This document shows positions 4,465 to 16,813 of a DNA stretch of 64,000 nucleotides, piece by piece (positions within the stretch are counted from its first letter, which is position 1; the number at the start of each line of letters is the position of its first letter). The DNA is from Salipiger bermudensis (GTDB lineage: Bacteria > Pseudomonadota > Alphaproteobacteria > Rhodobacterales > Rhodobacteraceae), in the NCBI RefSeq assembly GCF_020171625.1, contig NZ_JAIUZY010000003.1:372001-436000 (forward strand). Reading direction: 5' to 3'. Made by a program: the position numbers and the translations under genes. The notes beneath the pieces were generated by a model. The model was not told where the DNA came from. It was given only the letters and a program-made list of their open reading frames with translations, and ran no database searches.

Positions 4465-7146
4465 CTACTCTACGGCCAGCGCGATGTCCGCCGGCAGAGC
4501 CACCCGGAACGCCGCCCCGTCCTGGCCTTTCAGGTAGCGGATCTCGCCGCCCAGACGGGTGACGATCTGGCGGCAGATCGCCAGCCCGAGGCCCGCCCCG
4601 CCGGCCTTCTGATCGCTGACACGGCTGAACTTCTCGAAGATCACGTCCTGCGCCTCGGGCGAGATACCGGAACCGTTGTCGACGAAGTCGACCACCAGCC
4701 GATCGCCGCGATGGACCCGGATCTCGAGCGCCGGACGCGCGGCGTCGCAGTACTTCCGGGCGTTGGAGACGAGGTTGATGAACACCTGGCTGAGCCGGTC
4801 GAGATCGGTGTTGAGCCACACCCGCTCGGCGGCGGGATCGCGGATGATGCGCAGGGGCGCCGCGTGCTCATCCGCCGCCGCGGCGGCCACCGCCCGGTCG
4901 AGCACGTCCGAGAGCAGCCCCTCGCGCAGGTTCAGGCTGACCTGCCCGTTCTCCAGAACAGACAGGTCGAGCAGATCATCGAGCAGGCGCGTCAGCCGGA
5001 TCGCCTCGTCATGGATGATCGAGGAATACTTGCGCTGCTCCTCGGGCGTCAGGCCGGTGGTGTCGCGCAGGATTTCGGAGAAGGCGCGGATCGAGGTCAT
5101 CGGCGTGCGCAGCTCGTGGCTGATCTGGCTGAGGAAGGCGTCCTTCTGCACCGACAGCCGGGTCAGCTTGGCGTTGGCCTCGCGCAACTGGGCGGCGGTG
5201 CGCGCCAGCTCCTGCGACTGCGCCTCGAGACGGGCGGAGTATTCCATCAGCTGCGCGGTCTCGTCGGCCACCGCCATCAGGTCCTCGACCGAGACCGACA
5301 TGCCGCCGACGATCTGGCCCACCATCGCGTGCGCCGTGGCCGCGCCCACCGAACCTGCAAGCTCGCGCTCGAGCGTTTCGAGAAAGCTGGGCGTGGGCGC
5401 CGGCAAGGTCTCGGCCATGCCCTGCCGCCGCGCCTCGCGTTCGAACAGCCGCTGCGCATCGCGCGCGCCAAGGATGCGCTGCGCCATGATCATCAGGTCC
5501 TCGGCCTGCGCGACCCGGCCGGTCCAGCTGCGCGGCGCGGCGGAATGCTCGAAGACGTTGACGAACTGCGCGCCCTGCAGGCGCTCGAGCGGGCCGGGAA
5601 AGCTTGCCAGCGAGGCCAGCACGAAGCCGCCGGTGTTCAGCGCCAGCGACCAGAACACCGCGTGCAGCAGCGGGTCGATGCCCTCGATCCCGAACAGCGC
5701 GTGCGGGCGCAGCCAGCCGATGCCGAACGGCCCCGCCGCTCCCCAGGCCTCGGGCAGGAAGACGCCTGCGCCGAAGCTCGGCAGGAACAGTGTGTAGCCC
5801 CAGCAGCCGAAGCCCAGCGTCAGCCCCACCAGCGCGCCCAGCCGGGAGGCGCCGCGCCAGAAGATGCCACCCAGCATCGCCGGCAGGATCTGCGCCAGCC
5901 CGGCAAAGCTCACCAGCCCGATCGAGGCCAGCGCCGCGCCGCCGCCGGACAGGCGGTAATAGAGGTAGCCCAGCATCACCACGCCGATGATCGACAACCG
6001 CCGCGCCAGCAGCACCACGCCCCGCACGTCGCCCGAGACCTTGGCACCGCCGCGGGCGTAGCGCAGCCACAGCGGCATCACCACGTGGTTCGACACCATG
6101 GTCGACAGTGCGATGGCGGCGACGATGACCATCGAGGTGGCCGAGCTGAACCCGCCAAGGAAGGACAGCACCGCCAGCCCGTCGCGGCCCTGGCTCAGCG
6201 GCACGGTGAGCACGAAGAGGTCGGGGTTGGAGCCCTCGGGCAGCATCTCGAGCCCGGTCACCGCGATTGGCACCACGAACAGGCTCATCAGCCCGAGATA
6301 GAGCGGGAAGGCCCAGCTTGCGGTGCGCAGGTGGGTCTCGTTCTCGTTCTCGACCACCAGCACCTGGAAAATCCGCGGCAGGCAGAGAAAGGCGGTCGCC
6401 GACAGCACCGTCAGGCCGACCCAGCGCCCGCCGTCCATCTGCCACTGTCCGAGGCTGGAGGCATCGATCTTGTCCAGAACGCCCGAGACGCCCCCAGAAA
6501 GCCCCCAGACCACGAACACCCCGACCGCCAGAAGGGCGGCAAGCTTGACCACCGCCTCGACGGCGATGGCCATGACCACGCCGTTGTGGCGCTCGTTGGC
6601 GTCGAGGTTGCGGGTGCCGAAGATCACCGTGAAGAGCGCGAGGCCGGCCGCGACCCAGAGCGCGGTGTGGCCCTTCTCCTCGCCGGTCGCGATGTCGCCC
6701 ACGCCGAACACTTCGAAGCTGAGGGTCACCGATTGCAGCTGCAACGCGATGTAGGGGGTGGTGCCGACGACCGCGAGGATCGTCACCCCGACCGCCAGCA
6801 GGTTGGACTTCCCATAGCGCGACGAAATCAGGTCCGCCACCGAGGTGATGCGCTGAGAGCGCCCGATGCGCACCAGCTTGCGCAGGATCAGCCACCAACC
6901 GATCAGCACCAGCGATGGCCCGAGATAGATCGTCAGGTACTCGAAACCTGAACGCACCGCCGTGCCGACCGCGCCGTAGAAGGTCCAGGCGGTGCAGTAG
7001 ATCGACAGCGACAGGGTATAGACGATGGGCGAGCGCAGCCAGCGCGCCTGCCCGCGCAGGGCCGCCCGCTCGGCGGCAAAGGCGATGGCGAAGAGGAACA
7101 GCGCGTAGGCGCTGCCGACGAAGACCAGCGTGTTCAGCATGGTCAC
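4465..7146 (-). CDS. SLC5-STAC sensor histidine kinase (CrbS/CbrA-like, without receiver domain)
   Basis: An 893-residue hybrid of transporter and kinase. Residues 1 to about 510 form a sodium:solute symporter (SLC5) domain with some 12-13 membrane segments. Residues about 545-640 match the STAC linker. A dimerisation domain carries the phospho-acceptor histidine H677 (ISHELRTP), and the ATPase has the N box NLVSNARKYC (791-800), DNGSGIS (823-829) and GAGLGLAICRQ (850-860). In Vibrio cholerae the related CrbS controls acetyl-CoA synthetase. The PAS and receiver domains found in some relatives are absent; the receiver is a separate gene just upstream. The GTG at 7146 overlaps the previous stop (GTGA), giving translational coupling; an ATG 6 nt further is the alternative. 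Confidence 0.9.
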   Translation of the reverse strand: MTMLNTLVFVGSAYALFLFAIAFAAERAALRGQARWLRSPIVYTLSLSIYCTAWTFYGAVGTAVRSGFEYLTIYLGPSLVLIGWWLILRKLVRIGRSQRITSVADLISSRYGKSNLLAVGVTILAVVGTTPYIALQLQSVTLSFEVFGVGDIATGEEKGHTALWVAAGLALFTVIFGTRNLDANERHNGVVMAIAVEAVVKLAALLAVGVFVVWGLSGGVSGVLDKIDASSLGQWQMDGGRWVGLTVLSATAFLCLPRIFQVLVVENENETHLRTASWAFPLYLGLMSLFVVPIAVTGLEMLPEGSNPDLFVLTVPLSQGRDGLAVLSFLGGFSSATSMVIVAAIALSTMVSNHVVMPLWLRYARGGAKVSGDVRGVVLLARRLSIIGVVMLGYLYYRLSGGGAALASIGLVSFAGLAQILPAMLGGIFWRGASRLGALVGLTLGFGCWGYTLFLPSFGAGVFLPEAWGAAGPFGIGWLRPHALFGIEGIDPLLHAVFWSLALNTGGFVLASLASFPGPLERLQGAQFVNVFEHSAAPRSWTGRVAQAEDLMIMAQRILGARDAQRLFEREARRQGMAETLPAPTPSFLETLERELAGSVGAATAHAMVGQIVGGMSVSVEDLMAVADETAQLMEYSARLEAQSQELARTAAQLREANAKLTRLSVQKDAFLSQISHELRTPMTSIRAFSEILRDTTGLTPEEQRKYSSIIHDEAIRLTRLLDDLLDLSVLENGQVSLNLREGLLSDVLDRAVAAAAADEHAAPLRIIRDPAAERVWLNTDLDRLSQVFINLVSNARKYCDAARPALEIRVHRGDRLVVDFVDNGSGISPEAQDVIFEKFSRVSDQKAGGAGLGLAICRQIVTRLGGEIRYLKGQDGAAFRVALPADIALAVE

Positions 7147-14869: not shown

Positions 14870-16813
14870 ATGTCCGAGACCTACCCGCCGTCATCCGACT
14901 TCGTCAGCAAGGCGCATGTGGACGCTGCCAAGTATGACGAGATGTATGCCCGCTCGATCAGCGATCCGGAGGGGTTCTGGGCCGACGAGGCGCAGCGGCT
15001 CGACTGGATGGCCCGCCCGACCAAGATCAAGAACACCAACTTCGAGTTCGGCAAGGTCGATATCAAGTGGTTCGAGGATGGCGTGCTCAACGTCGCCTAT
15101 AACTGCGTCGACCGCCACCTGAAGACCCGCGCCAACCAGACCGCGATCATCTTCGAACCCGACAACCCCGACGATCCCGCCCGGCACATCACCTATGCCG
15201 AGCTCTACGACAAGGTGAACCGCATGGCCAACGTCCTGCTCAGCCAGGGCGTGATGCGCGGCGACCGCGTGGTGATCTACCTGCCGATGATCCCCGAGGC
15301 CGCCTACGCCATGCTGGCCTGCGCCCGCATCGGCGCCATTCATTCCATCGTCTTCGCCGGCTTCTCGCCCGACGCGCTGGCCAACCGCATCAACGACTGC
15401 GGCGCCAAGATCGTCATCACCGCCGACACCGCGCCCCGAGGCGGCCGCAAGACCGCGCTCAAGTCCAACACCGACGCCGCCCTGCTGCACTGCTCGGACA
15501 AGGTCCGCTGCCTCGTGGTCAAGCATACCGGCGACCAGACCACCTGGATCCAGGGCCGCGATGTCGACCTCAACTACCTCATGGAGCACGCGGCCCCCGA
15601 CTGCCCGCCGCGCCCGATGAACGCCGAAGACCCGCTCTTCATCCTCTACACCTCGGGCTCCACCGGCAAGCCCAAGGGAGTTGTGCACGCAAGTGGTGGA
15701 TATCTGGTTTACGCCGCCCTGACCCACGAGGTCGTGTTCGATTATCACGACGGCGACGTCTACTGGTGCACCGCGGATGTGGGCTGGGTCACCGGCCACA
15801 GCTACATTGTCTACGGGCCCCTCGCCAACGGCGCCACCACGCTGATGTTCGAGGGCGTGCCGACCTGGCCCGACGCCAGCCGCTTCTGGGAGGTTTGCGA
15901 CAAGCACAAGGTCAACCAGTTCTACACCGCGCCGACCGCGCTCAGGGCGCTGATGGGCCAGGGCGACAGCTTCGTCGAGAAGTGCGATCTCAGCTCTCTC
16001 AAGCTGCTCGGCACCGTCGGCGAGCCCATCAACCCCGAGGCCTGGAACTGGTACAACGACAAGATCGGCAAGGGAAACTGCCCGATCGTCGACACCTGGT
16101 GGCAGACCGAGACCGGCGGCCACCTGATGACCCCCCTGCCCGGCGCCCACGCGCTCAAGCCCGGCTCGGCGATGAAGCCGTTCTTCGGCATCAAGCCGGT
16201 GGTGCTCGAGCCCAGCTCCGGAGAGGAGATCTACGACGTCCCGACCGAGGGCGTTCTGGCGATCGCCGACAGCTGGCCGGGGCAGATGCGCACCGTCTGG
16301 GGCGATCACGAGCGCTTCGAGCAGACCTATTTCCAGCAGTACAAGGGCTACTATTTCTCGGGCGACGGCTGCCGCGTCGACGCCGATGGCGATTACTGGA
16401 TCACCGGCCGGGTCGATGACGTGATCAACGTCTCGGGCCACCGCATGGGCACGGCCGAGGTCGAATCGGCGCTGGTGGCGCATGCCAAGGTCGCCGAGGC
16501 GGCGGTGGTGGGCTACCCGCACCCGGTGAAGGGCCAGGGCATCTACTGCTACGTGACGCTGATGAACGGGATCGAGCCCTCCGAGGAACTCAAGAAGGAG
16601 CTGCGCGGCTGGGTCCGCACCGAGATCGGCCCGATCGCCTCGCCGGACCTGATCCAGTGGGCCCCGGGCCTGCCGAAGACGCGCTCGGGCAAGATCATGC
16701 GCCGCATCCTGCGCAAGATCGCCGAGAACGACTACGGCGCCCTCGGCGACACCTCGACCCTCGCCGACCCGTCGGTGGTCGACGACCTCATCGAAAACCG
16801 CGCGAACAAGTGA
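14870..16813 (+). CDS. acs: Acetyl-CoA synthetase
   Basis: A 647-residue AMP-forming acetate:CoA ligase that makes acetyl-CoA from acetate, ATP and CoA in the cytoplasm. It has [12 protein letters not shown], the acetate-pocket segment [19 protein letters not shown] and the catalytic lysine K608 in [11 protein letters not shown], the residue inactivated by acetylation in known Acs enzymes. Length and motifs match true Acs; propionate use cannot be ruled out. AGGAGGAGGAG precedes the ATG at 14870. It lies 184 nt downstream of the importer ATPase on the same strand. Control of acs by SLC5-STAC kinases and by ScfR/RamB-type regulators is known elsewhere, and both are encoded just upstream. Confidence 0.95.

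Follow-up and report, generated by a model that had tools for sequence, protein, structure and literature searches.

The locus described here lies in a 64,000-nucleotide window from Salipiger bermudensis (G000:C3:372001-436000 of a 4.74-Mb genome) and combines genes for an ATP-binding cassette (ABC) importer of the LIV type, for acetyl-CoA synthetase (Acs) and for a two-component system. Genes on the minus strand for a histidine kinase, a small membrane protein, a receiver-only response regulator and a ScfR-like regulator diverge from five importer genes followed by acs (Table 1), and every feature of this region that the initial annotation described is present. The importer has the composition of its type, with a periplasmic binding protein, two BPD_transp_2 permeases and two ATPases. 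The scfR gene lies 5' of the block formed by the receiver, small protein and kinase genes on the same strand; the 4-base overlaps between receiver and small protein genes and between small protein and kinase genes indicate that these three probably form one operon.

Table 1. Features of the importer-acs locus, in window positions.
Feature	Position	Strand	Remarks
Histidine kinase, SLC5-type (probably SLC5-STAC)	4465-7146	-	893 aa
Small membrane protein	7143-7448	-	101 aa; two hydrophobic segments
Receiver-only response regulator	7445-7819	-	124 aa; conserved acidic pair, Asp, Thr, Lys
ScfR-like regulator	7922-9232	-	436 aa; helix-turn-helix (HTH), linker, DHp-like hairpin, degenerate IrrE-like part, ScfRs C-terminal domain
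DHp-like hairpin in ScfR-like regulator (residues 133-201)	8630-8836	-	His140 codon 8813-8815
Putative operator	9284-9321	+	TTTACA 9284-9289 and TTGACA 9316-9321, 32 bp apart
LIV-type substrate-binding protein	9455-10801	+	448 aa; Tat-type signal read by eye
Permease 1 (LivH/UrtB-like)	10913-11944	+	
Permease 2 (LivM/UrtC-like)	11948-13150	+	
ATPase 1 (LivG/UrtD-like)	13162-13917	+	
ATPase 2 (LivF/UrtE-like)	13930-14685	+	
acs, acetyl-CoA synthetase	14870-16813	+	647 aa; NCBIfam acetate--CoA ligase 1000 bits (cut-off 725)

The gene order proved to be widely kept among Rhodobacterales loci. The first set comprised the best 80 loci of a search with the binding protein that met at least 595 relatives; many of the 80 are from named Roseobacters, with binding proteins 83-98% identical to that of the window. 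Complete, well-covered genes were found for the kinase in 74 of the 80 loci, the receiver in 76, ScfR in 77 and the last ATPase in 77, and the small membrane protein was complete in 65. Median identities to the window were 71% for the kinase, 68% for the receiver, 52% for ScfR, 87% for the binding protein, 86 and 76% for the permeases, and 84 and 87% for the ATPases. The acs gene followed 60-260 bp 3' of livF in 49 of 74 decidable loci; four further loci end too soon, and two of the 80 are without livF. One locus of the typical Roseobacter kind, with a binding protein 90% identical, stands in a sequence titled Enemella evansiae (JAFKDC010000037.1), for which the label or the assembly is probably wrong.

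Sampling more widely, we found the binding protein (E at most 1e-80) in 143 of 195 genomes of the order and in 46 of 385 genomes of the class, a count that takes in the genome of the window and four from its family. Forty class loci were fetched, 39 of them outside the window's family. A kinase of more than 40% identity was encoded upstream of the importer in 25 of the 40; among the 34 class loci with a full ScfR, 25 had the kinase and 27 the kinase or receiver upstream. The acs gene adjoined livF in three class loci outside the family (L130, L133 and L134) and in one inside it (L152), and no other downstream gene cluster was widely shared among the class loci. L130, L133 and L134 have the order livF-acs-receiver-kinase, and a Phe replaces His140 of ScfR; the circuit seems to have been rewired in the family of these three loci.

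We then compared the promoters, using a strict pattern (TTTACA-N24-27-TTKACA), a looser one (TTKACA-N24-27-TTKACA) and a backward pattern as control. The strict doublet occurs exactly twice in the 4.74-Mb genome, in the importer promoter and in the promoter of a second operon, acs-adk-actP, both times in the same orientation relative to the gene; the backward control has no match in this genome. TTTACA is present in 78 of the 80 importer-scfR intergenic regions, the window's included (shuffle mean 8.7), and the looser doublet in 62 of the 80 (shuffle mean 0.07), at a spacing of 32 bp in 61 of the 62 and mostly 166-178 bp from the start of the binding-protein gene. Promoters of separate acs genes followed by adk have TTTACA in 11 of 11 cases (1.7 in shuffles) and the doublet in six (0.01); for other single acs promoters the counts are four and three of four. 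By the same looser test, none of the six acs genes directly after livF has a doublet of its own. The 184-bp livF-acs gap of the window does not contain the doublet. In 54 relatives, the strict doublet stands before importers in 39 of 48 cases and before separate acs genes in 22 of 43, but before none of the 19 acs genes that lie inside importer operons; the chance expectation in the target promoters is 0.01. Of the 34 class loci whose ScfR is divergent, 31 also have TTTACA in front of the importer and 20 the TTKACA doublet. The likeness among importer promoters follows from homology, which does not account for the likeness between importer and acs promoters. The initial annotation would have given up its reading if importer and acs were neither linked nor co-regulated elsewhere; linkage indeed fails in a third of the decidable loci (25 of 74), whereas an unlinked acs often carries the doublet (22 of 43).

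Two other candidate elements were dropped. A TTTGCA-type, RamB-like box is found in 57 of the 80 importer regions (10 in shuffles) but in only two of 11 acs-adk promoters (1.6 in shuffles), and a doublet 5' of the receiver gene (7880-7917, minus strand) is kept in only one of 76 relatives. A TTKACA upstream of the receiver gene occurs in 59 of these 76, with TTTTGACA or a sequence near it in the eight that were inspected. It resembles an ordinary -35 box and probably marks a promoter of its own, so that receiver and kinase may be expressed separately from scfR.

The second acs (G000:C7:130989-132929) is 98.0% identical to that of the window over 1932 bp and is followed by an adenylate kinase gene (adk) and an ActP-type symporter gene. 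The homology between the two copies (14879-16810 of the window and G000:C7:130998-132929) stops near the borders of the coding sequences. Of eight further genomes with two close matches to acs, six have one acs after livF and the other before adk and actP, at pair identities of 99.95, 99.1, 80, 80, 76 and 76%. Judged from these sequences (L161-L164 for the relatives), the copies have been homogenised in some lineages in a pattern that looks like repeated gene conversion confined to the coding sequence, which suggests one enzyme serving two uptake systems. As expected if acs is a repeat in the assemblies concerned, 25 of 78 first-set loci break off within 2.3 kb after livF, where acs is sited, as against one in the next 3.6 kb. 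The adenylate kinase gene between acs and actP (L111, 6943-7629) follows acs in 10 of 14 separate acs loci examined, and its product could recycle the AMP made by Acs.

Genomes without the importer are informative in the same respect. The binding protein is missing from 20 of 52 genomes of the family, from which 19 loci were fetched. Eighteen of the 20 retain the kinase at 57-72% identity, whereas G006 has a relative at 42% and G018 none. The kinase-receiver block is found in all 19 loci except that of G006, and an ScfR match in all except those of G006 and G014. In two of the 19 (G049 and G013), acs lies opposite scfR at the usual place of the importer, with TTTACA boxes between. In G012, also without the binding protein, one strict doublet outside the target promoters adjoins scfR. 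Judged by these importer-less loci, the tie of acs to this control is no looser than that of the importer. The G006 locus (L216) has acs and an ActP-like gene near those of another kinase (41% identity) and of a receiver that belongs to it.

We consider the locus a regulon for the uptake and activation of acetate-type short monocarboxylates, with a relay from kinase through receiver to ScfR, and assign this interpretation a probability of about 0.58. The proposal of the initial annotation that sensing, import and activation form one module thus gained support from the kept gene order, the linkage of acs, the doublet at separate acs genes and the arrangement in G049 and G013. The likeliest cargo, judged from the acs operon, the shared doublet, the homogenised acs copies and the acs-type sensor, is acetate or short monocarboxylates, possibly also lactate, propionate or pyruvate. 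Several observations weigh against this regulon. After the importer, 25 of the 74 decidable loci, each with about 6 kb of sequence there, lack acs, among them loci of Leisingera (L014), Phaeobacter (L036), Ruegeria (L083) and Sulfitobacter (L085). Nine of the 48 importers and 21 of the 43 separate acs genes have no strict doublet. Of the 127 strict matches in the 54 relatives, 39 precede importers, 23 separate acs genes and 65 lie elsewhere, the last not above the 102 matches of the backward control in the same genomes.

The importer could instead carry L-lactate or another hydroxy acid, with acs a passenger or a helper against overflow acetate and with a sensor that reads lactate or pyruvate. 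We regard this as unlikely, yet it has an advocate in the loci without acs in the operon, and the related SLC5-STAC kinase RpuS controls pyruvate uptake. An L-lactate ABC transporter has reportedly emerged from mutant fitness data in Phaeobacter inhibens. The Roseobacter Ruegeria pomeroyi has SPO1017-1021, whose published gene order (ATPase, ATPase, permease, permease, binding protein) matches that of the window's importer and whose substrate label differs from our reading: two papers call it a lactic-acid transporter (PMC9870897; PMC9723723), and one of them gives SPO2963 for acetate (PMC9723723). A data paper on R. pomeroyi counts an acetate transporter among 18 annotated ones and leaves its gene unnamed in section 7 (PMC11374999). 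The main text of an R. pomeroyi transporter mutant study contains neither "lactate" nor "acetate" (PMC10130141), and the lactate label hence does not come from there. Speaking against a lactate importer, the window's genome has no third doublet beyond the importer and acs-adk-actP promoters, and in L130, L133 and L134, where kinase and receiver stand in another order, acs is likewise next to the importer. A broad importer of short monocarboxylates would satisfy the acetate and the lactate evidence alike.

In fold and Pfam family, the binding protein belongs with the LIV, urea and amide binding proteins, which leaves room for an ordinary importer of branched-chain amino acids, urea or amides that came to stand beside acs and a two-component system by chance. 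None of the five importer genes reaches the NCBIfam cut-off of a urea or branched-chain amino acid system, and a chance neighbourhood is made less likely by the conservation of the regulatory genes and by the doublet that importer and acs have in common. In a poor global alignment with E. coli LivJ, judged by eye, the Asp and Glu that presumably hold the amino group are not kept. We therefore think such an importer highly unlikely. No close relative solved with a ligand was found for the binding protein, the identity being at most 26% among the 50 listed.

The kinase consists of a transport-like N-terminus, a DHp domain with His677 and an HATPase domain. Only HisKA and HATPase_c scored above cut-off, and the protein ends at the ATPase, with no C-terminal receiver. 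Positions 5-614 of its profile matched a solved chain named only "histidine kinase" (10ed_A, 9.8e-100). Pfam SSF did not match the window's kinase; with E allowed up to 1, it matched five of 31 orthologs in the alignment, the best at 2.8e-10. No STAC model matched the kinase either; the label SLC5-STAC is a probable one. Among the 23 histidine kinase loci found in the genome, only this kinase was matched through its N-terminus and would thus stand in for CrbS, an SLC5-type kinase from other bacteria.

The regulator belongs to the ScfRs family (PF09856, 41.6 bits against a cut-off of 24). HTH_3 and ScfRs were matched in all 54 aligned orthologs and the IrrE-like M78 in 29 (Pfam, E up to 1), and its C-terminal domain has invariant cysteines at 337, 411, 414 and 419, which may serve an Fe-S site as in PrpR. 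Against Mycobacterium tuberculosis PrpR, the regulator profile (6e-77) aligns over 58-132 and 204-476 and not over 133-203. The only other ScfRs protein of the genome has 38 residues where the window's regulator has 102. An AlphaFold model (mean pLDDT 88.9) places helices at 133-157 and 164-201, and a search of the protein data bank matched HK853 to the regulator profile at 5.4e-4. The sequence comparisons and this model indicate that the regulator carries an inserted, kinase-like DHp hairpin that is absent from PrpR and from the paralog. The initial annotation overlooked this insertion, which probably joins receiver and regulator.

The hairpin most likely derives from the neighbouring kinase, to judge by its sequence, and this origin would explain recognition of the same receiver. 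Aligned by hhalign, the hairpin matched the cognate kinase (P 8e-5) and none of three controls, and a hidden Markov model (HMM) of the cognate kinase's DHp domain matched all 54 regulators, with a worst E of 6e-4. The converse HMM, built on the hairpin, scored the neighbouring kinase at 46.9 bits, as compared with 16.4 for the best other one among the 23 histidine kinase loci; the kinase DHp HMM also scored another kinase at 56 bits. In a tree of 77 columns, whose bootstrap was unsettled and in which many forks stayed open, the hairpins of regulators and cognate kinases were separated from 13 other kinases with support 98/86. After the neighbouring kinase, the hairpin HMM matched best a histidine kinase with a reported in-frame TGA, G000:C1:459666-460364 (L095).

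His140 of the hairpin aligns with the phosphorylated His of kinases and is kept in 50 of the 54 aligned orthologs. Among the 34 class orthologs, 28 retain it; a kinase or receiver is encoded upstream in 27 of these 28 and in none of the six that lost it (Fisher 5e-6, uncorrected for kinship). On the other side, these losses amount to only about three events; L130, L133 and L134, which lack the His, do have a divergent receiver and kinase downstream of acs, and L139 keeps the His with no kinase or receiver nearby. HisKA matched 18 of the 54 orthologs at E up to 1 (best 3e-5), whereas the window's own regulator gives only a weak match, with E 0.057 and 13.9 bits where the cut-off is 26.9, and a Foldseek search with the whole model ranked PrpR and HTH proteins and not kinases. 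Glu follows His140 in only 42% of the orthologs, so the hairpin is hardly part of a kinase. The hairpin might accordingly serve only to dimerise the regulator or to sequester a docked receiver, His140 receiving no phosphoryl group. It is not followed by a CA domain and lacks the RTP motif found in the kinase H-box, and outside Rhodobacterales the acidic residue next to the His has mostly been lost. We rate a purely dimerising or docking hairpin as rather doubtful, given the retention of His140 and its loss in class orthologs with neither kinase nor receiver upstream.

For the regulon that we favour, the following mechanism can be envisaged. The SLC5-type kinase would sense acetate or a related acid and, as gene order and the kept active residues suggest, phosphorylate the receiver of its own operon. 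The receiver would dock on the hairpin and probably pass its phosphoryl group to His140. Since the PrpR-like C-terminal domain is kept with its cysteines, the regulator could combine the outside supply, as phosphate, with the inside acyl-CoA state. It would act at the TTTACA doublets that the importer-acs and acs-adk-actP promoters share. The ABC importer would provide high-affinity uptake at the expense of ATP and the ActP symporter a second route, each supplying one of two nearly identical Acs enzymes. The complete scheme, in which a phosphorelay ends on a His of the transcription factor, a PrpR-like regulator bears a hairpin copied from the kinase and has an acyl-CoA and redox input, and an acetate ABC importer is switched together with acs-adk-actP, is put forward tentatively.

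Some phosphorelays use a separate DHp or Hpt protein, such as Spo0B and ChpT. The proposed relay resembles these in moving the receiver-to-His step away from the kinase, and differs from them in that the His would lie in the DNA-binding transcription factor itself. In CrbS/CrbR of Vibrio, Pseudomonas and Sinorhizobium, as probably in the window, an SLC5-type kinase is tied to acs and actP with acetate utilisation as output; the sources describe CrbS as a hybrid kinase with a receiver domain and CrbR as LuxR-type, in S. fredii too (PMC5715377; PMC9100948). The window has a kinase without a receiver domain, a receiver-only partner and an ScfR-like DNA-binding protein. The window's kinase is thus not CrbS proper, a point on which the initial annotation needs amending. 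PccR, RamB and MccR/PrpR share with the window's regulator an HTH and ScfRs, two near-identical operator boxes (putative ones in the window) and a probable link to acyl-CoA metabolism (PMC10370305). They differ from it in the DHp-like hairpin between linker and IrrE-like part and in the TTTACA boxes, which are 25-26 bp apart as compared with 18 in class 2 RamB (PMC10370305). Section 5 of the same paper mentions Pden_1785 of Paracoccus denitrificans, an extra ScfR beside a two-component system, which means that such a gene neighbourhood was noted earlier; Pden_1785 may be an ortholog of the window's regulator. ActP, encoded with acs in the same genome under the same doublet, is a symporter and not an ABC importer.

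By title and abstract start, none of the matches listed in our literature search dealt with an ABC importer of this type for acetate or with an ScfR that contains a DHp insertion. An ABC importer for acetate would, to our knowledge, have no precedent, and the scavenging of very dilute acetate by such bacteria is, as far as we know, an unsettled matter. The locus gives a concrete ABC candidate for this scavenging, together with a regulon of two promoters. It further suggests how, in evolution, a metabolite-sensing regulator may have been wired to a two-component system, namely by insertion of the kinase's receiver-docking hairpin.

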